Assembly (NCBI RefSeq): GCF_000931445.1
Contig: NZ_CP010849.1
Location: 1,736,001-1,800,000 of the forward strand
From: Streptomyces cyaneogriseus subsp. noncyanogenus
GTDB taxonomy: Bacteria > Actinomycetota > Actinomycetes > Streptomycetales > Streptomycetaceae
DNA length: 64,000 nucleotides
Direction of reading: 5' to 3'
Positions 56,128 to 64,000 of the stretch are shown in pieces (position 1 is the first letter of the stretch; every line of letters starts with the position of its first letter). The notes under the pieces are model-generated. The model was not told where the DNA came from, made no database searches, and worked only from the letters and a program-made list of their open reading frames with translations. The translations under genes and the position numbers were made by a program.

Positions 56128-57183
56128 TCAGGCGAGGCCGGCGCGCTCCAGGGCCTCGGCTCCGGCCCGGAGGGCGGCGATCCGCTCCTCCAGGGTGAAG
56201 CCCGCCGGGGCGAGGGAGAGCGTGGTCACCCCGGCCGCCGCGTAGGACTTCATCCGGTCCGCGATCCGCTCCACGGACCCCAGCAGCGTCGTCCGGTCGA
56301 TCAGCTCGTGCGGTACGGCCGCCGCGGCGCCCTGCTTGTCGCCCGACAGGTACTTCTCCTGGATCTCGGCGGCGGCCTGCTCGTACCCCATGCGCCGGGC
56401 GAGCCGGTTGTAGAAGTTCTGCTTGGGGCTGCCCATGCCGCCGACGTACAGCGCGGTGTACGGGCGGAAGGTGTCGGCGAGCGCGGCCACGTCCTTGTCG
56501 TCGCCGAGGGCCAGCGGCAGGGTCGGGCACACGTCGAACCCGTCGAGCGTCTTGCCGGCCTTCTCGCGCCCGGCGCGCAGGTGCCGGATCGCCGTCTCCT
56601 CCAGGTGCTCGGCCGAGGGGAAGATGAGCAGGGCGCCGTCGGCGATCTCGCCGGTCTGCTCCAGGTTCTTCGGCCCGATCGCGGCGATGTACAGCGGGAT
56701 GTGCTCCCGCTGCGGGTGCACGGTCAGCTTGATCGGCTTGCCCGGGCCGCCGGGCAGCGGCAGCGTCCAGTGCTCGCCCTCGTACGTCAGCCGCTCCCGC
56801 GTCATCGCCCTGCGCACGATCTCGACGTACTCACGGGTCCGGGAGAGCGGCTTGTCGAACTTCACGCCGTACCAGCCCTCGGAGACCTGCGGTCCGGAGA
56901 CGCCGAGACCGAGCCGGAAGCGGCCGCCCGACAGGGAGTCCAGGGTGGCGGCGGTCATCGCGGTCATCGCGGGCTGGCGGGCCGGGATCTGGAAGATGGC
57001 CGAGCCGACGTCGATGCGCTCGGTCCGGGCGGCGACCCACGCCAGCACGGTGGCCGCGTCGGAGCCGTACGCCTCGGCGGCCCAGCAGACGGCGTAGCCG
57101 AGCCGGTCGGCCTCCTGGGCGACGGCGAGGTTGTCCGCGTCCATTCCGGCGCCCCAGTAGCCGAGGTTGATCCCGAGCTGCAT
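56128..57183 (-). CDS. LLM-class F420-dependent oxidoreductase
   Basis: 351 residues from ATG 57183 (AAGGGGA 7 nt upstream). It is a luciferase-like TIM barrel: LGINLGYWGAGMDADNLAVAQEADRLGYAVCWAAEAYGSD at the start, RTERIDVGSAIFQIPARQPAMTAMTAATLD, and GRFRLGLGVSGPQVSEGWYG. The family uses deazaflavin F420, which actinomycetes make, and FMN is less likely. Substrate unknown. Divergent from the aldo-keto reductase, with CAGTAA-containing similar hexamers before both. Confidence 0.88.
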   Translation of the reverse strand: MQLGINLGYWGAGMDADNLAVAQEADRLGYAVCWAAEAYGSDAATVLAWVAARTERIDVGSAIFQIPARQPAMTAMTAATLDSLSGGRFRLGLGVSGPQVSEGWYGVKFDKPLSRTREYVEIVRRAMTRERLTYEGEHWTLPLPGGPGKPIKLTVHPQREHIPLYIAAIGPKNLEQTGEIADGALLIFPSAEHLEETAIRHLRAGREKAGKTLDGFDVCPTLPLALGDDKDVAALADTFRPYTALYVGGMGSPKQNFYNRLARRMGYEQAAAEIQEKYLSGDKQGAAAAVPHELIDRTTLLGSVERIADRMKSYAAAGVTTLSLAPAGFTLEERIAALRAGAEALERAGLA

Positions 57184-57371: not shown

Positions 57372-58358
57372 ATGGAGCAGAGGCATCTCGGTCGCACCGG
57401 CCTGCGCGTGTCCCGCATCGGTCTCGGAACCCTGACCTGGGGGCGGGACACCGACGAGCATGACGCGGCGGAGCTCTTGAAGACCTTCTGGGAGGCGGGC
57501 GGGACCCTCGTCGACACCGCGGACGTGTACGGCGACGGGGAGGCCGAGTATCTGCTCGGCAGGCTCATGGACGGCCTGGTGCCGCGGCGGGATCTGGTGA
57601 TCTCCACCAAGGCGGGCAGCGTCCCGGACCCCGACCGCCGCGTCGACGGCTCGCGCGGCCATCTGCTCTCCGCGCTGGACGCCTCGCTCGCCCGGCTCGG
57701 CACGGACCACGTCGACCTGTGGCACGTCCACGCCTTCGACCCCCACACGCCGCTGGAGGAGACGCTGCACGCCCTGGACCTGGCGGTGGCCAGCGGCCGG
57801 GCCCGCTACGCCGGGGTCTCCAACTTCTGCGGCTGGCAACTGGCCAAGGCGGCGACCTGGCAGCTCGCCGCGCCGGGGGCGCGCACCCGGCTGGCCAGTA
57901 CGCAGATGGAGTACTCGCTGCTCCAGCGCGGCGTCGAGCGGGAGGTGCTGCCCGCCGCGCTGGACCTGGGGATCGGGCTGCTGCCGTCCTCCCCGCTGGG
58001 CCGCGGCGTCCTGACCGGCAAGTACCGGGGGGACGCCATGCCGCCGGACTCGCGCGGTGCTTCCGACCACCTGGCGCCGTTCGTGGCGCCCTACCTCGAC
58101 GACACCGCGAGCCGCATCGTGGACGCGGTGGCGACGGCGGCGGACGGACTGGCCGTGACCCCGCTCCAGGTGGCCCTCGCCTGGGTCCGGGACCGGCCCG
58201 GCGTGGCCGCGCCCGTCGTCGGCGCGCGGAACGCGCGGCAGCTCGCCGCGGCGTTGTCAGTGGAGGCCCTTAGTCTTCCTGACGAGATCTGCCGGGCGCT
58301 CGACGACGTGTCGGCGCCCGTGCACCGCTATCCCGATCACGACTGGAGCACGCTGTGA
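57372..58358 (+). CDS. Aldo-keto reductase
   Basis: 328 residues from ATG 57372. The catalytic tetrad can be placed: Asp and Tyr in LVDTADVYGDGEAEYLLG, Lys in VISTKAGS, His in DLWHVHAFDPHTPLEET. The NADPH site shows PVVGARNARQLAAAL near the end. It reduces aldehydes or ketones with NADPH; substrate unknown. Its stop overlaps the start of the following gene (GTGA), so the pair is translationally coupled, an unexpected link between a reductase and a RecD2-like protein. Confidence 0.92.
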   Translation: MEQRHLGRTGLRVSRIGLGTLTWGRDTDEHDAAELLKTFWEAGGTLVDTADVYGDGEAEYLLGRLMDGLVPRRDLVISTKAGSVPDPDRRVDGSRGHLLSALDASLARLGTDHVDLWHVHAFDPHTPLEETLHALDLAVASGRARYAGVSNFCGWQLAKAATWQLAAPGARTRLASTQMEYSLLQRGVEREVLPAALDLGIGLLPSSPLGRGVLTGKYRGDAMPPDSRGASDHLAPFVAPYLDDTASRIVDAVATAADGLAVTPLQVALAWVRDRPGVAAPVVGARNARQLAAALSVEALSLPDEICRALDDVSAPVHRYPDHDWSTL

Positions 58359-60784
58359 GCACGGAGCCCGAGACCACGGAGCACGCCGAGCCGGGGACGC
58401 CGGGCACCACGGAGGCCGGCGCGGCGCGGGACACGGGCGCCCCGCCCGGACCGCAGGATCCCGCGGGCGCGGACGAGACGCCGGCCCGGGACGAGGCGGA
58501 CGCGGCGGCGGGCCCGGCTGAGGCCGCCTCGCCGGCCGAAGCCGCCCCCGGGCACTCCGGCGAGCCCGCCGGCGGGAGCCCGGGCGCCGGGGAGTCCGGG
58601 GAGGCGGACCCCGACGGCCCGGAGCCCCCGCACGCGAGCGCCGGGGACGCGGACGCCGACGGCTCGGAAGCCGGGGACGCGCGGACCATGGACGGGAACG
58701 GGGACGGCGGCGAGGACTCCGGCGCCGACGGCGGTGCGGCGGGAGGCGAGGGCGGGGAGCTGTCCGAGGCCGAGGCCGAGCTGCTCGCCCAGCGGCTGGA
58801 GCGGGAGCGCATCGAGCGGCGCAAGGCGGAGAAGAGGGGGCCGATCGCGAGCGGGGCCAAGCTCAGCGGACAGGCGGCCGATCTGCTGGCCGCGGTCCGG
58901 GCCGTCGAGAGCGGCGAGAAGCCGCCGGCCACCGTCTTCGGCGGCCCCCGGCCGGCTCCGCGCCGCCCCGCCCCCGAGCCGGCCCGCCGGCCGCAGCCGG
59001 TGCCGGCCCCGGCCGCGCCCGCGGCCCCCGCCGCGGAGACCGTGCAGGCCGTACGGCGCGTGCTGGCCGAGGGCGGCGCGCCCGAGGCCCTGGCACCGCT
59101 GGCCGCCGCGGCGCTCGGCGAGGGCGCGGACGAGCGGCTGCGCGCGGACCCCTGGCAGCTCCTGCGGGTGACGGGCGTACGCCCGGAGCAGGCCGACGGC
59201 TTCGCCCGGGCGCTGCTCGGCGCGGAGTGCGGCCCCGGCGACGAGCGGCGGGGCCGCGCGGTCACCGGCTGGCTTCTGGAGCAGGCGGCCCTGGCCGGGC
59301 ACACCGCCCTGGAGCTGCCGCAGCTCACGGCCGCGCTGGCCCGGCACGGCGTGCCGGACCCCGACGCGGCCGTGCAGAGCGCGCTCGCCGAGGGAGAGAC
59401 CCTGGCGTTCCAGGACGCCCTGGACGAGCCCGGCACCCCGGTCCCGCCGGACGCCACGGCGGCGACGGCGGAAGAGGACGGCGCGGAGGTCGAGCGCCCG
59501 GTCCGGGTCCTGATCGGCCTGGAGCGGTACGCGCTCGCGGAGGAGAGCCTCGCCGACGGTCTGGCCCGGCTGGTCGATTCGGTCCCGGCGCGGACCGCCG
59601 CCGAGGAGGACTGGGAGCGGGCCGCCGCCTCGGCGCAGGGCTCCGCGGCCGACCTGATCCGCGCCGTCGCGGCCCACGCCCTGGTCCTGCACACGGGCGG
59701 CGAGGCGTCCCTCGCGGAACCGGCGGCGCTGCTGCGCGCCGCCCACGGCCTCGGCCTGCGCGCCTGGGCCGCCACGCCCAGCCCGGCCGGCCGCGCCCGC
59801 TTCGCGGCGCTGCCGGGCGGCCCGGCGGCTTCCGTGGCGACCGTCACCGGGCTCCTGGCCGGCTCGGAGGGGCCCGGCCGGGACGCGGACGGTTCGCTCG
59901 ATCTCGACCTGCTCGTGGTGTTCGACGCCCCCCAGCTCGACGTCGAGGCGGCGGCGCTGCTGACCGAGTCGCTGGCGGACGGCGCCCGGCTCGTGCTGGC
60001 CGGGGACCCGGCGGTGCTGTGGTCCGTGGGCCCGGGACGGGTCTTCGCGGATCTCCTGGCGGCGCGGATCTGTCCCCACATCGCCTCGCGGCTCCCGGAT
60101 CCCGGCCCGCTGGGCGAGCTGGTCTCCGGCATCGGCGCCGGGGAGCTGATCCAGGTGCGGGCGCCGGGCAAGGAGGTCGTGATCGTCCCGGTGCGGGACG
60201 CGGGCGAGGCCGTGCACCGGACCGTGCAGCTCGTCGCCGACTCGGTGCCGCGCGCGATCGGCGTCCCCGCCGACGAGACGCAGGTGATCACTCCGGGGCA
60301 CGGCGGTGCCGTCGGCACGCGCGCGCTGAACGCGGCGCTGAAGGAGCGGCTCAACCCGGGCCCGGGCCGCTTCGGCGGTTTCGACCCGGGCGACCGGGTC
60401 GCCTACTCCCCCGCTCCGGGCCGTACGCTGCCGGGCCGGGTGGTGACGGCCGACGCCGACGGGCTGCACCTGTCCTGCGCGGGAGAGGCCGTCGTCGTGC
60501 CGAAGGACCGGGTGGAGCGGTGTGTGCGGCACGGGTGGGCGCTGACCGCGCACCAGGCGGCGGGCGGCCGGTGGCCCGCGGTGGTCGTGGTCCTGCCCGG
60601 TGACGCGGCACCGGTCCTCAGCCGCCCCTGGGTCTACACGGCGTTCGGCCGGGCCGAGCGCCATCTGTCCGTCGTGCACGGTGTGGAGCAGGCGCTGCCG
60701 CGCGCCGTGGCCGAGGTCCCGGCGAAGCCCCGGACGACGCGCCTGCCGGTCCTGCTGGCGCCCCAGACGACCGCGGCCGGCTGA
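58355..60784 (+). CDS. RecD2-like helix-hairpin-helix protein with lost ATPase motifs
   Basis: 809 residues from GTG 58355. Residues 1-125 are acidic, low complexity. A helical region (about 125-200) is followed by the RecD2-type HhH region (ADPWQLLRVTGVRPEQADGFARALLG, 260-360). A RecD-like motor follows in which each ATPase motif is changed: HTGGEASLAE where GGPGTGKT is expected, and VVFDAPQLD where DEA is expected. GDPAVLWSVGPGRVFADL, the SH3-like FGGFDPGDRVAYSPAPG and motif VI-like YTAFGRAERHLSVV are still recognisable. It may bind DNA and act as a regulatory or structural partner without unwinding. Confidence 0.8.
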   Translation: MSTEPETTEHAEPGTPGTTEAGAARDTGAPPGPQDPAGADETPARDEADAAAGPAEAASPAEAAPGHSGEPAGGSPGAGESGEADPDGPEPPHASAGDADADGSEAGDARTMDGNGDGGEDSGADGGAAGGEGGELSEAEAELLAQRLERERIERRKAEKRGPIASGAKLSGQAADLLAAVRAVESGEKPPATVFGGPRPAPRRPAPEPARRPQPVPAPAAPAAPAAETVQAVRRVLAEGGAPEALAPLAAAALGEGADERLRADPWQLLRVTGVRPEQADGFARALLGAECGPGDERRGRAVTGWLLEQAALAGHTALELPQLTAALARHGVPDPDAAVQSALAEGETLAFQDALDEPGTPVPPDATAATAEEDGAEVERPVRVLIGLERYALAEESLADGLARLVDSVPARTAAEEDWERAAASAQGSAADLIRAVAAHALVLHTGGEASLAEPAALLRAAHGLGLRAWAATPSPAGRARFAALPGGPAASVATVTGLLAGSEGPGRDADGSLDLDLLVVFDAPQLDVEAAALLTESLADGARLVLAGDPAVLWSVGPGRVFADLLAARICPHIASRLPDPGPLGELVSGIGAGELIQVRAPGKEVVIVPVRDAGEAVHRTVQLVADSVPRAIGVPADETQVITPGHGGAVGTRALNAALKERLNPGPGRFGGFDPGDRVAYSPAPGRTLPGRVVTADADGLHLSCAGEAVVVPKDRVERCVRHGWALTAHQAAGGRWPAVVVVLPGDAAPVLSRPWVYTAFGRAERHLSVVHGVEQALPRAVAEVPAKPRTTRLPVLLAPQTTAAG

Positions 60785-60882: not shown

Positions 60883-61680
60883 TCAGCGGCCGGCGCCCAG
60901 CCGTCCGGGCCCGCCGCCGTGCCCGCCGTCCGCGTCGTCGTCCTCATCGTCCTCGTCGTCCTGATCGGCCTCATCGTCTTCGTCGCCTTCGTCGTCCTCT
61001 TCGGTTCCCCGGTCCAGCGCCCCGTCGGCGTCATCGTCGTCGATCTCGTCGAGGTCGTCGATGTCGTCGTCGGTGTCGTCGTCGAAGACCGCGCTGACGT
61101 CGAAGCGGCAGACCACCCCCTGGGGGTCGATCTGCTCGAACGGTGCCTCCAGCCACTCGCCGGCCTCGGCGGGTTCGTCCGCCGCCGTGACCCACAGCGT
61201 GGAATCGCCCTCCTCCAGGCCGAACTCCTTGTGCCGCGAGGCGATCTCGTCCGGTTCGAACTCGCCGAACAGCAGGCCGAGCGCCCCGTGGACCGTGCCG
61301 GAGGCGTGCGTGGCGGCGCCGTCGTCCTCGTCGGCCGCCTCGATCCGCCTGGCCTGCGCCAGCAGCCGCTGCGGCTCCACGACGGTGTAGTCGCGGCGGA
61401 TCAGCACGCTCAGCGCGTTCGGCTCCTCGGGGCCGGTGTACGGCGGCAGCGTGTCGTCCGCGCCGGGGATCTCGAAGGGAGTGACCTCGTCGTAGCGGTC
61501 GTAGAGCAGCTCGTCGTACGCCTCTGCGGCCGCGGCCAGCTTGTTGAACGCCTCGTAGACGGCCGGGTCGTCCTCCCCCGACCTGCGTTCGACCGCGGCC
61601 AGGTGGCGGTCGAGCGCGGTCTTGACCGCCTCGGCGGCGGCGCGTACCTCGGCAGCGGTGGGCTGCGCAGCATCAGACAT
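60883..61680 (-). CDS. Acidic-tailed hypothetical protein
   Basis: 265 residues from ATG 61680. Residues 1-195 look folded: an N-terminal helix (TAAEVRAAAEAVKTALDRHLAAVERRSG), a YDELLYDRYDEVTPF segment and VVEPQRLLAQARRIEA, typical of a conserved Streptomyces hypothetical. The last 65 residues are almost all Asp and Glu followed by GGHGGGPGRLGAGR. Acidic tails of this kind can bind basic proteins or mimic DNA, but nothing else points to a function. It is divergent from the DUF5703 gene. Confidence 0.85.
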   Translation of the reverse strand: MSDAAQPTAAEVRAAAEAVKTALDRHLAAVERRSGEDDPAVYEAFNKLAAAAEAYDELLYDRYDEVTPFEIPGADDTLPPYTGPEEPNALSVLIRRDYTVVEPQRLLAQARRIEAADEDDGAATHASGTVHGALGLLFGEFEPDEIASRHKEFGLEEGDSTLWVTAADEPAEAGEWLEAPFEQIDPQGVVCRFDVSAVFDDDTDDDIDDLDEIDDDDADGALDRGTEEDDEGDEDDEADQDDEDDEDDDADGGHGGGPGRLGAGR

Positions 61681-61727
61681 AGTGCAGACGCTATCCGTAC
61701 CCGGGCCCAGCCCGCACAATAGATGCG

Positions 61728-61916
61728 ATGCCGGAATACGAATTTGTCGACGTGTACGTACCGCGCGGGGTCTCCCGCAAGGACGCGACACGTCTGCTGA
61801 CGGACCACGCCGAGTACGGACACTGGGAGTTGTACCGCCTGAGCCTGCTGCGCGACGGCAGCCGCAGGGTGCGGTTGCGCCGGCGGATCATCCGCCAGGT
61901 GCGCGCCACGTGGTGA
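61728..61916 (+). CDS. DUF5703 family small protein
   Basis: 62 residues from ATG 61728. MPEYEFVDVYVPRGVSRKDATRLLTDHAEYGHWELYRLSLLRDGSRRVRLRRRIIRQ is a conserved actinobacterial text known as DUF5703. It has the alternating pattern of a small alpha/beta protein, with an Arg-rich C terminus. No function is known. A perfect 12-bp hairpin (61947-61974) ends the transcript. Confidence 0.85.
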   Translation: MPEYEFVDVYVPRGVSRKDATRLLTDHAEYGHWELYRLSLLRDGSRRVRLRRRIIRQVRATW

Positions 61917-62036: not shown

Positions 62037-62795
62037 TCACGCCGAGGCACGCGCCTTGCGGTACAGCACCGCACCCGCGAGCAGCGCTCCCGCGCCCGCC
62101 GGCAGGGCGAGACCGAGCGGCAGCCCGCTGCCGGTCTGCGCGAGCTGCGCGTTGCCCTTGGGCTGGCTGACGAACTGGACCTCCGGATCGTTGCCGCGCG
62201 GGGACTCGTCCGGACCGTCGGGCTTGTCGGGCGTGGCGGGGGTGTCCGGGGTCGCGGGGGTGCCGGGGTTCTCCGGCTTCACCGGGGGCTTCTCGGGGCC
62301 GCTGGGCGGGTTGCCGTGCGGGCCGTCCTCGTTGACGCAGTCGTTGCCCGCGGCCGGGTTGCCGAGGCCGACGACGTCGACGCTGTTGCCGCAGACGTTC
62401 ACCGGGACCTGGACCGGGACCTGGACGTGGTTGCCGGAGCCCACGCCGGGGGAGCCGGTGGCGTGACCGCCGGCGTGCGCGCCGCCGGCGTCGCCGTGAC
62501 CGCCGGAGCCGCCGTGACCGCCCGGGTCACCGTGGCCGCCGGACGCACCGCCGCCCTGGTTGGCGCACACGTTGCCCACCGCCGGGTTGAGGATGCCGAT
62601 GACGTCGACCGTGTTGCCGCAGACGTTCACCGGCACGTGCACGGGGGCCTGCACCGTGTTGCCGGACAGCACGCCGGGCGAGCCGGAAGCGGAGCCGTGG
62701 GCGCCGGAGTCGGCGTGGGCGGCGCCGCCGGCGGCGGCGAGCACACCGGTCGCGGCCGCCATCGTCATCAGGCCCTTACGGGTGACCTGTCGCAT
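62037..62795 (-). CDS. chpC: Long chaplin with sortase signal (ChpC-like)
   Basis: 252 residues from ATG 62795. A signal peptide (LMTMAAATGVLAAAGGAAHA) is followed by two chaplin domains with GSPGVLSGNTVQAPVHVPVNVCGNTVDVIG and GSPGVGSGNHVQVPVQVPVNVCGNSVDVVG, each with paired cysteines. They are separated by a Gly/His-rich linker. A Pro/Asp-rich stretch leads to LAQTG, then a membrane helix and the basic end RKARASA, the class E sortase anchor. Chaplins coat aerial hyphae and spores with amyloid fibres and lower surface tension. It lies next to chpH, matching SCO1674/SCO1675. Confidence 0.95.
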   Translation of the reverse strand: MRQVTRKGLMTMAAATGVLAAAGGAAHADSGAHGSASGSPGVLSGNTVQAPVHVPVNVCGNTVDVIGILNPAVGNVCANQGGGASGGHGDPGGHGGSGGHGDAGGAHAGGHATGSPGVGSGNHVQVPVQVPVNVCGNSVDVVGLGNPAAGNDCVNEDGPHGNPPSGPEKPPVKPENPGTPATPDTPATPDKPDGPDESPRGNDPEVQFVSQPKGNAQLAQTGSGLPLGLALPAGAGALLAGAVLYRKARASA

Positions 62796-62859
62796 TTGCT
62801 GAATACCTGCCTTCGGCCTTGGGCCGTTGTGCCGTTGTCCTGAATTCGTCGTTCTCAAG

Positions 62860-62906
62860 GCCGGTCGGCCCTGGCGCGCGCGGCGCGCGCTCCAAGGCCG
62901 ACCGGC
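62860..62906 (-). terminator. Hairpin terminator after chpH
   Basis: Arms GCCGGTCGGCC (62860-62870) and GGCCGACCGGC (62896-62906) with a GC-rich inner repeat. It is 29 nt beyond the chpH stop on the minus strand and separates chpH from chpC, so chpC probably has its own promoter in 62796-62855. Confidence 0.75.
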
Positions 62907-62934
62907 TCAAACCCTCAGGGGGTGAGGCTCAACG

Positions 62935-63168
62935 TCACTTGTTGATGCAGGTGTTGCCGAAGGCGGGGTTCAGCACGCCGATCACGTCGACCGTGTTGCC
63001 GCAGACGTTCACCGGGACGTGGACGGGCACCTGGACGACATTGCCGGACAGGACACCCGGGGACCCCACGGCGGCACCGAACGCGCCGGCGTCGGCCGCG
63101 GCCATGCCCGCGCCCGTGAGAACGAGTCCACCCGTGGCAACCGCGGTAGCGACGACCTTCTTGATCAT
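62935..63168 (-). CDS. chpH: Short chaplin (ChpH-like)
   Basis: 77 residues from ATG 63168 (CGAGGAGGAATA upstream, a strong site). The signal peptide VVATAVATGGLVLTGAGMAAA is followed by a single chaplin domain GSPGVLSGNVVQVPVHVPVNVCGNTVDVIGVLNPAFGNTCINK with the two conserved cysteines. Mature length about 50, as for short chaplins that self-assemble into amyloid fibrils on aerial hyphae. A sigma-BldN-like promoter lies 49-76 nt upstream. Confidence 0.96.
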   Translation of the reverse strand: MIKKVVATAVATGGLVLTGAGMAAADAGAFGAAVGSPGVLSGNVVQVPVHVPVNVCGNTVDVIGVLNPAFGNTCINK

Positions 63169-63216
63169 TATTCCTCCTCGTTGGCAACGCGATCCCATGT
63201 GCGGATCACATGACGA

Positions 63217-63244
63217 GTAACGAAGAGGGAGTAATGGAGCTACG
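63217..63244 (-). promoter_or_regulatory. Putative sigma-BldN promoter of chpH
   Basis: On the minus strand CGTAGC (63239-63244) and CGTTAC (63217-63222) are exactly 16 nt apart. The BldN consensus known from Streptomyces is CGTAAC-N16-CGTTGA, so there are three mismatches in twelve, with correct spacing. It would start the transcript about 40 nt before the chpH start. Confidence 0.55.
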
Positions 63245-63339
63245 AGCTTATGGTCGCATTCACCCGTCCCAGTCGGGCTCCGCACGTCCGAGCGAATAGT
63301 CGCGACCGGATGCAGCGGGGCAAACCGGGACGGGTCGAT

Positions 63340-64000
63340 TCAGGAGGCGTCGATGAAGCGGTCGAGCACCCGCACGCCGAACTTGAGGCCCTCCACCGGG
63401 ACCCGCTCGTCGACGCCGTGGAACATGCCCGCGAAGTCCAGCTCCGGCGGCAGCTTCAGCGGCGCGAAGCCGAAGCAGCGGATGCCGAGGTCGTCGAAGG
63501 ACTTGGCGTCGGTGCCGCCGGAGAGCATGTACGGCACGGCCCGGGCGATGGGGTCCTCGGCGCGCAGCGCGCTCTGCATGGCGTCGACCAGCCGGCCGTC
63601 GAAGTCGGTCTCCAGCGCCTTGTCGGCGTGCACGTCCTCCCGCCGCACGCGCGGGCCGAGGATCCGGTCGAGGTCGGCGAGGAACTCCTCCTCGTAGCCG
63701 GGCAGGAAGCGCCCGTCGACATGGGCGGTGGCCTGGCCGGGGATGACGTTGACCTTGTAGCCGGCGCCGAGCATGGTGGGCGCCGCGGAGTTGCGCAGCG
63801 TGGTGCCGATCATGCGGGCGATGCCGCCGAGCTTGGCGAGGGTCTCGTCCATGTTCTCGGGGTCGAGTTCGGTGCCGAGCGCGTCGGAGAGCTCGTCCAG
63901 GAAGGCCCGCACGGTCTTGGTGACCCGCACCGGCCACGTGTGGCGGCCGAGCCGCGCGACGGCGTCGCACAGCTCCGTGATCGCGTTGTCGTCGTTGGTC
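63340..64000 (-). CDS. M20-family metallopeptidase, C-terminal part (cut by window edge)
   Basis: About 220 C-terminal residues are visible, and the frame stays open to the window edge. It includes the dimerisation domain (AGYKVNVIPGQATAHVDGRFLPGYEEEFLADLDRILGP) and the last part of the catalytic domain (GGTDAKSFDDLGIRCFGFAPLKLP..GVDERVPVEGL). The metal-binding N-terminal residues lie outside. It is probably a dipeptidase or acetylase-like amidohydrolase of unknown substrate. The stop at 63340 is followed by the chpH promoter region 96 nt on, so it does not share a transcript with chpH. Confidence 0.9.
   Translation of the reverse strand, partial: TNDDNAITELCDAVARLGRHTWPVRVTKTVRAFLDELSDALGTELDPENMDETLAKLGGIARMIGTTLRNSAAPTMLGAGYKVNVIPGQATAHVDGRFLPGYEEEFLADLDRILGPRVRREDVHADKALETDFDGRLVDAMQSALRAEDPIARAVPYMLSGGTDAKSFDDLGIRCFGFAPLKLPPELDFAGMFHGVDERVPVEGLKFGVRVLDRFIDAS

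Follow-up and report, generated by a model that had tools for sequence, protein, structure and literature searches.

A near-universal Streptomyces protein with a predicted RecD2-type helicase fold and lost catalytic motifs

The open reading frame at 58355-60784 of the window (the whole stretch of 64,000 nucleotides that was analysed) encodes a protein with a predicted RecD2-type fold that has lost the catalytic residues of a helicase. The loss is old and widespread, the protein is under purifying selection, and a canonical RecD2 is encoded elsewhere in the genome. We take the protein to be a neofunctionalised pseudohelicase, an ATP-independent binding platform that would dock on DNA forks or on the partners of RecD2, and we give this reading a probability of about 0.68. 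The motif loss noticed in the initial annotation is real, and it is older and wider than was supposed there; the role at DNA ends that was suggested with it is one of several possibilities. The features of the region are as follows.

56128-57183, minus strand: luciferase-like oxidoreductase (PF00296), syntenic neighbour
57372-58358, plus strand: aldo/keto reductase (PF00248), overlapping the pseudohelicase start, syntenic across the family
58355-60784, plus strand: degenerate RecD2 paralogue, 809 aa (GTG at 58355, stop at 60784)
58355-58759, plus strand: acidic, fast-evolving N-terminal tail, aa 1-135 (from charge, and from dN/dS of aa 60-135)
58760-58954, plus strand: conserved helical segment, aa 136-200 (among the searched loci, in the window's own genus only)
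59042-59305, plus strand: HhH_RecD2 domain, aa 230-317 (PF14490)
59636-59653, plus strand: former Q motif, Gln431 lost (alignment)
59687-59722, plus strand: former motif I (Walker A), reads LHTGGEASLAEP (alignment)
59765-59800, plus strand: former motif Ia, largely stripped of the basic residues that intact relatives have in APTGRAAKR (alignment)
59906-59941, plus strand: former motif II (Walker B), VVFDAPQLD, with Asp to Phe/Leu and Glu to Asp
59987-60025, plus strand: motif III, GDPAVLWS, Gln lost and Gly-Asp kept (alignment)
60074-60097, plus strand: motif IV region, Arg579 kept (alignment)
60386-60505, plus strand: SH3-like (2B) barrel, aa ~678-717 (strands in the AlphaFold model)
60524-60577, plus strand: motif V region, His kept and Arg/Gln/Ser/Glu lost (alignment)
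60623-60661, plus strand: motif VI region, RPWVYTAFGRAER, Arg766 kept (alignment; PF13538)
60883-61791, minus strand: acidic protein without a Pfam match, syntenic neighbour
63340-63930, minus strand: M20 peptidase (PF01546), syntenic neighbour, reading frame still open at the end of the window

We begin by considering the reading frame and the fold that it encodes. The GTG start and the stop codon of the aldo/keto reductase gene upstream overlap (GTGA), an arrangement kept in nearly all the Streptomyces loci that have the 5' end present. The codon positions of the sense frame have the usual G+C pattern (0.86/0.60/0.95); a gene on the opposite strand was also considered and rejected, the long antisense open frames being G+C artefacts. 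Pfam finds HHH_RecD2 at residues 230-317 (E 4.9e-8) and UvrD_C_2 at residues 726-774 (E 3.4e-8), with an AAA_30 match slightly under the cut-off. The NCBIfam model of RecD2 (TIGR01448) covers residues 229-797 with E 1.8e-31 and a score of 109 bits where the cut-off is 500, and the model of RecD from RecBCD (TIGR01447) scores 58.5 bits against a cut-off of 310, while models of defence systems give weak and partial matches. The order of the parts (HhH, 1A, and 2A with its SH3-like insert) is that of RecD2. An AlphaFold model of the core, which takes 61 window and locus sequences as input and supersedes an earlier model from Streptomyces sequences alone (pLDDT 62), has a pLDDT of 92.7 and a pTM of 0.90, and predicts the SH3-like barrel with strands at residues ~681-715. 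When the core model is used in Foldseek, 3gp8 is found with E 8.9e-31; the best PDB match is Deinococcus RecD2 (PDB accession code: 3e1s), with a VIA Z of 33.0 and an rmsd of 2.8 A over 484 residues, and RecD of RecBCD scores well under this, at Z ~22. Deinococcus RecD2 is also the nearest solved protein by sequence (E 9e-84 with the family profile). On the strength of this modelling the frame encodes a RecD2-type SF1B fold, and the RecD2 architecture that the initial annotation described, with an HhH region, a motor outline, an SH3-like domain and motif VI, holds up against Pfam, the structure prediction and Arg766, the motif VI residue present in 78 of the 80 loci examined.

What is missing from this fold is the catalytic machinery. 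Motif I has neither the Lys nor the Ser/Thr of a P-loop, as was first reported, and its GGEASLAE aligns with the GGPGTGKS of intact relatives while being two residues shorter. Since the Walker A pattern (G-x4-G-K-[ST]) occurs nowhere in the ORF, an intact P-loop located elsewhere in it is ruled out; the pattern is likewise absent from 134 relatives (the 80 loci and 54 further Streptomycetaceae members). The description of motif II has to be corrected: it had been read as DE changed to DA, but the gap-free alignment takes VVVDEASMLD to VVFDAPQLD, so that Asp523 is replaced by Phe or Leu and Glu524 by Asp. The ssDNA motifs Ia and Ib have largely lost their Arg, Lys and His residues. Among the 123 columns common to intact relatives and canonical RecD2, the Streptomycetaceae have lost 33 of the 61 that lie in helicase motifs versus 13 of the 62 elsewhere (Fisher p 1.8e-4).

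How far does this degenerate form extend? A scan of genome contigs gives at least 379 confirmed relatives, the best 80 of which were examined as named loci; 79 of these belong to Streptomyces and one to an actinobacterium, and a set picked as best matches leans towards close kin. Walker A was also checked in the 54 further Streptomycetaceae members, and the sampled members of 17 genera are all without both Walker A and Walker B. Among genomes drawn evenly across the order, all 45 of the same genus contain the gene, with no stop codons inside the matches, and the core has a dN/dS of 0.21-0.30 in seven pairs by a simple NG86 estimate. These comparisons, together with the synteny described below, agree with the initial view of a maintained protein and indicate a degenerate RecD2 under purifying selection that is near-universal in Streptomyces. 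One further locus, L122, was retrieved and proved to be no member of the family. Searches of plasmids yielded RecD-like helicases, with the pseudohelicase absent from the matches listed. Among the plasmid records, NZ_LT559118.1 (Nonomuraea, 11.85 Mb) has almost no annotation and probably represents a chromosome.

The chromosomal neighbourhood allows the loss to be placed in time. The 80 best-match loci share, with few exceptions, the order CorA, luciferase-like protein, aldo/keto reductase, pseudohelicase, acidic protein, chaplins, M20 peptidase, and these neighbours are metabolic and cell-surface genes, with no repair genes among them. The acidic protein (60883-61791, minus strand) has a long Asp/Glu-rich C-terminal tail and adjoins the pseudohelicase throughout Streptomyces; directly past it lie two chaplin genes with ChpA-C domains (62037-63285, minus strand), whose synteny is nearly fixed in the genus. 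In five other actinomycete families (f7, f10, f12, f14, f16) an intact RecD2-like protein, with GGPGTGKS and DE, stands beside the reductase, and in most of these families the luciferase-like and M20 genes flank it as well. In f21 the intact protein adjoins M20 on a contig too short to include the reductase side; the intact copy of f18 is not syntenic. Degenerate versions are found in f1, f2, f6, f8, f17, f20, f28, f31, f34, f35 and f40. The initial annotation had reasoned that relatives with normal motifs would make the change a local mutation. That possibility is rejected, as no Streptomycetaceae relative has normal motifs; normal relatives do exist, but as the syntenic orthologues of other families, and the loss is thus ancient and clade-wide.

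The differing replacements in motif I had raised the suspicion of independent losses. In a maximum-likelihood tree with the columns of motifs I, II and V masked and the long rows L253 and L254 excluded, however, the 36 degenerate rows form one clade versus 24 intact rows (100/99; 200 of 200 bootstrap trees). On the basis of this clade, it appears that the Actinomycetes lost catalysis a single time, at a deep branch, with the protein kept and the dead P-loop then drifting lineage by lineage; the clade could be inflated by the long branches of some short members, which makes the single loss provisional. In several genomes of f2, f6, f20, f28 and f31 the syntenic protein is cut to open frames of ~320-490 aa. 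In seven short syntenic proteins (L159, L160, L163, L165, L248, L250, L252) much or all of the ATP-binding region is gone, a stage of further reduction.

A canonical RecD2 scoring over the cut-off is present elsewhere in 41 of 41 Streptomycetaceae genomes, that of the window genome lying at G000:C1:2906060-2908249 with 834 bits. The sampled genomes of f34, f35, f17 and f18 also have such a match, and no copy over the cut-off was found in the families with the intact version (f7, f10, f12, f14, f16, f21) or in the degenerate families f2, f6, f8, f20, f28, f31 and f40. In Streptomycetales and f17 the dead copy is therefore a paralogue that coexists with an active-looking RecD2, which does not hold everywhere. 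Besides the degenerate protein, three f35 genomes (G098, G100, G107) each encode two RecD2 proteins that score over the cut-off. In one same-genus genome (G009:C1:3277071-3279258) the canonical match is split over two open frames of 501 and 488 aa, which might reflect a disrupted gene or an error in sequencing, and the degenerate paralogue in that genome is whole.

We turn our attention to what the remaining residues can tell about the use of the protein. Within Streptomyces, motifs I, II, III, V and VI have a conservation of 0.90-0.96 versus 0.86 for other core columns, while Q, Ia and Ib reach only 0.68-0.73; with all motif columns pooled, they are no better conserved than the remaining core (0.856 vs 0.863). 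We read the high and the low groups as a former nucleotide pocket that may be newly constrained and an ssDNA path in domain 1A that appears relaxed. The core contains 4 Lys and has a net charge of -21; the corresponding figures for canonical RecD2 are 15-28 and -3 to -8. Such a Lys-poor, negative core, along with the lost basic residues of Ia and Ib, argues against simple, classic and tight ssDNA binding, and the binding of DNA ends that had been proposed is so far unsupported for the same reasons; binding of a protein partner seems the more likely of the two. The acidic N-terminal domain of the initial annotation is acidic indeed, with a net charge of -24 across 225 aa. As residues ~60-135 are poorly conserved, with a pairwise dN/dS of 0.69-0.85 in four pairs and 1.52 in a fifth, it looks like a loose tail instead of a domain, and residues 136-200 are its sole conserved part.

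Combining these observations, a course of events can be outlined. The actinomycete ancestor would have had an ordinary RecD2-like SF1B helicase gene beside the aldo/keto reductase gene, and this RecD2-like gene would have lost ATP binding and hydrolysis once, with the fold retained and the former pocket placed under new selection. The present protein, presumably hydrolysing no ATP and thus not translocating, would work by binding: its HhH, 2A and SH3-like domains would form a static platform that docks on DNA forks or on RecD2 partners (SSB, RecA, or RecD2 itself) and in this way adjusts recombination or the repair of forks. The partner and the substrate are guesses. Bacillus RecD2 modulates replication restart and has links to SSB and RecA (PMC12143592), for which reason we name SSB, RecA and RecD2 as the first candidates. 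A narrower proposal, tentative and in our view possible at best, is that a second RecD2-type helicase became a non-catalytic regulator throughout an actinomycete clade. Its rebuilt pocket, with the sequences LHTGGEA, DAPQLDVE and GDPxxLWS and the two retained candidate arginine fingers, would bind a protein or another ligand, and the regulator would possibly act on canonical RecD2 or its partners.

The main rival, though an unlikely one, is that the protein has left DNA metabolism and now partners the aldo/keto reductase or the product of another neighbouring gene. The reductase adjoins it in nearly all families and shares the GTGA overlap in Streptomyces, and the loss of Lys and of motifs Ia and Ib would fit a lost binding of nucleic acids; the HhH, 2A and SH3-like parts of RecD2 are nevertheless retained. 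The adjacency also occurs with intact versions; being older than the catalytic loss, it offers no explanation for that loss. We regard as improbable a divergent but active NTPase, in which the remodelled pocket would bind and hydrolyse a nucleotide through non-canonical residues aided by Arg579 and Arg766. Such an enzyme would account for the two candidate arginine fingers, for the Gly-Asp of motif III and for the high conservation of motifs I, II and III, but the Lys, the Ser/Thr, the Mg-binding Asp, the Gln of the Q motif and the Gln/Glu of motif V are all lost, the P-loop is two residues shorter, and most of the sampled f35 members lack Arg766. Still less credence is given to a decaying pseudogene, or a relic held only by its overlap with the reductase gene: the nearly free evolution of the N-terminal tail and the truncated frames in several f2, f6, f20, f28 and f31 genomes are what decay would produce, whereas a core dN/dS of 0.2-0.3, the stop-free matches in all 45 same-genus genomes and the deep synteny are not.

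The value of the locus lies in the comparison that it offers. Pseudohelicases are rarely caught with living ancestor-like and dead forms at one chromosomal place; here a direct comparison is possible between the intact orthologues, the dead ones and a separate canonical RecD2, so that the use of a helicase fold without a motor becomes testable. There is also a caution for annotation, since a near-universal Streptomyces gene should not be labelled an ATPase or helicase. We found no description of this protein in the literature searched, a search that most subscription papers fall outside.

Among the known systems, RecD2 itself (TIGR01448; Deinococcus radiodurans RecD2, PDB accession codes: 3e1s, 3gp8, 3gpl) has the same HhH, RecA-like 1A and 2A folds, SH3-like 2B and C-terminal UvrD_C_2 in the same order; the pseudohelicase differs in its score (109 of 500 bits), in the missing residues of Walker A and B, Q, Ia/Ib and motif V, in its Lys-poor acidic core and in its N-terminus. 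The intact syntenic proteins (e.g., L147, L151, L152) share its neighbours, ~42-45% core identity and its side of the tree with respect to canonical RecD2, but keep GGPGTGKS and DE and occur in genomes that have no RecD2 copy over the cut-off. RecC of RecBCD and AddB are SF1 helicase folds without motor activity that serve as scaffolds; they share the non-motor SF1 fold with the present protein, and differ from it by their SF1A origin and by their stable complexes with nuclease-helicase partners. The retained helicase fold and the loss of catalytic residues across orthologues under purifying selection make the Streptomyces protein a probable pseudohelicase, a descriptive class to which the conserved Utp25 (PMC9539457) belongs, although that is a eukaryotic RNA-helicase-like ribosome factor. 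Deinococcus radiodurans PriA is a demonstrated pseudohelicase, with no ATPase or unwinding activity, that binds DNA and, by its authors' evidence, DnaB (PMC4504706). It resembles our case as a bacterial helicase fold kept with dead motifs, but it belongs to the PriA family, whereas the Streptomyces protein, known here by sequence and model, is an SF1B RecD2 paralogue that stands beside a canonical copy.
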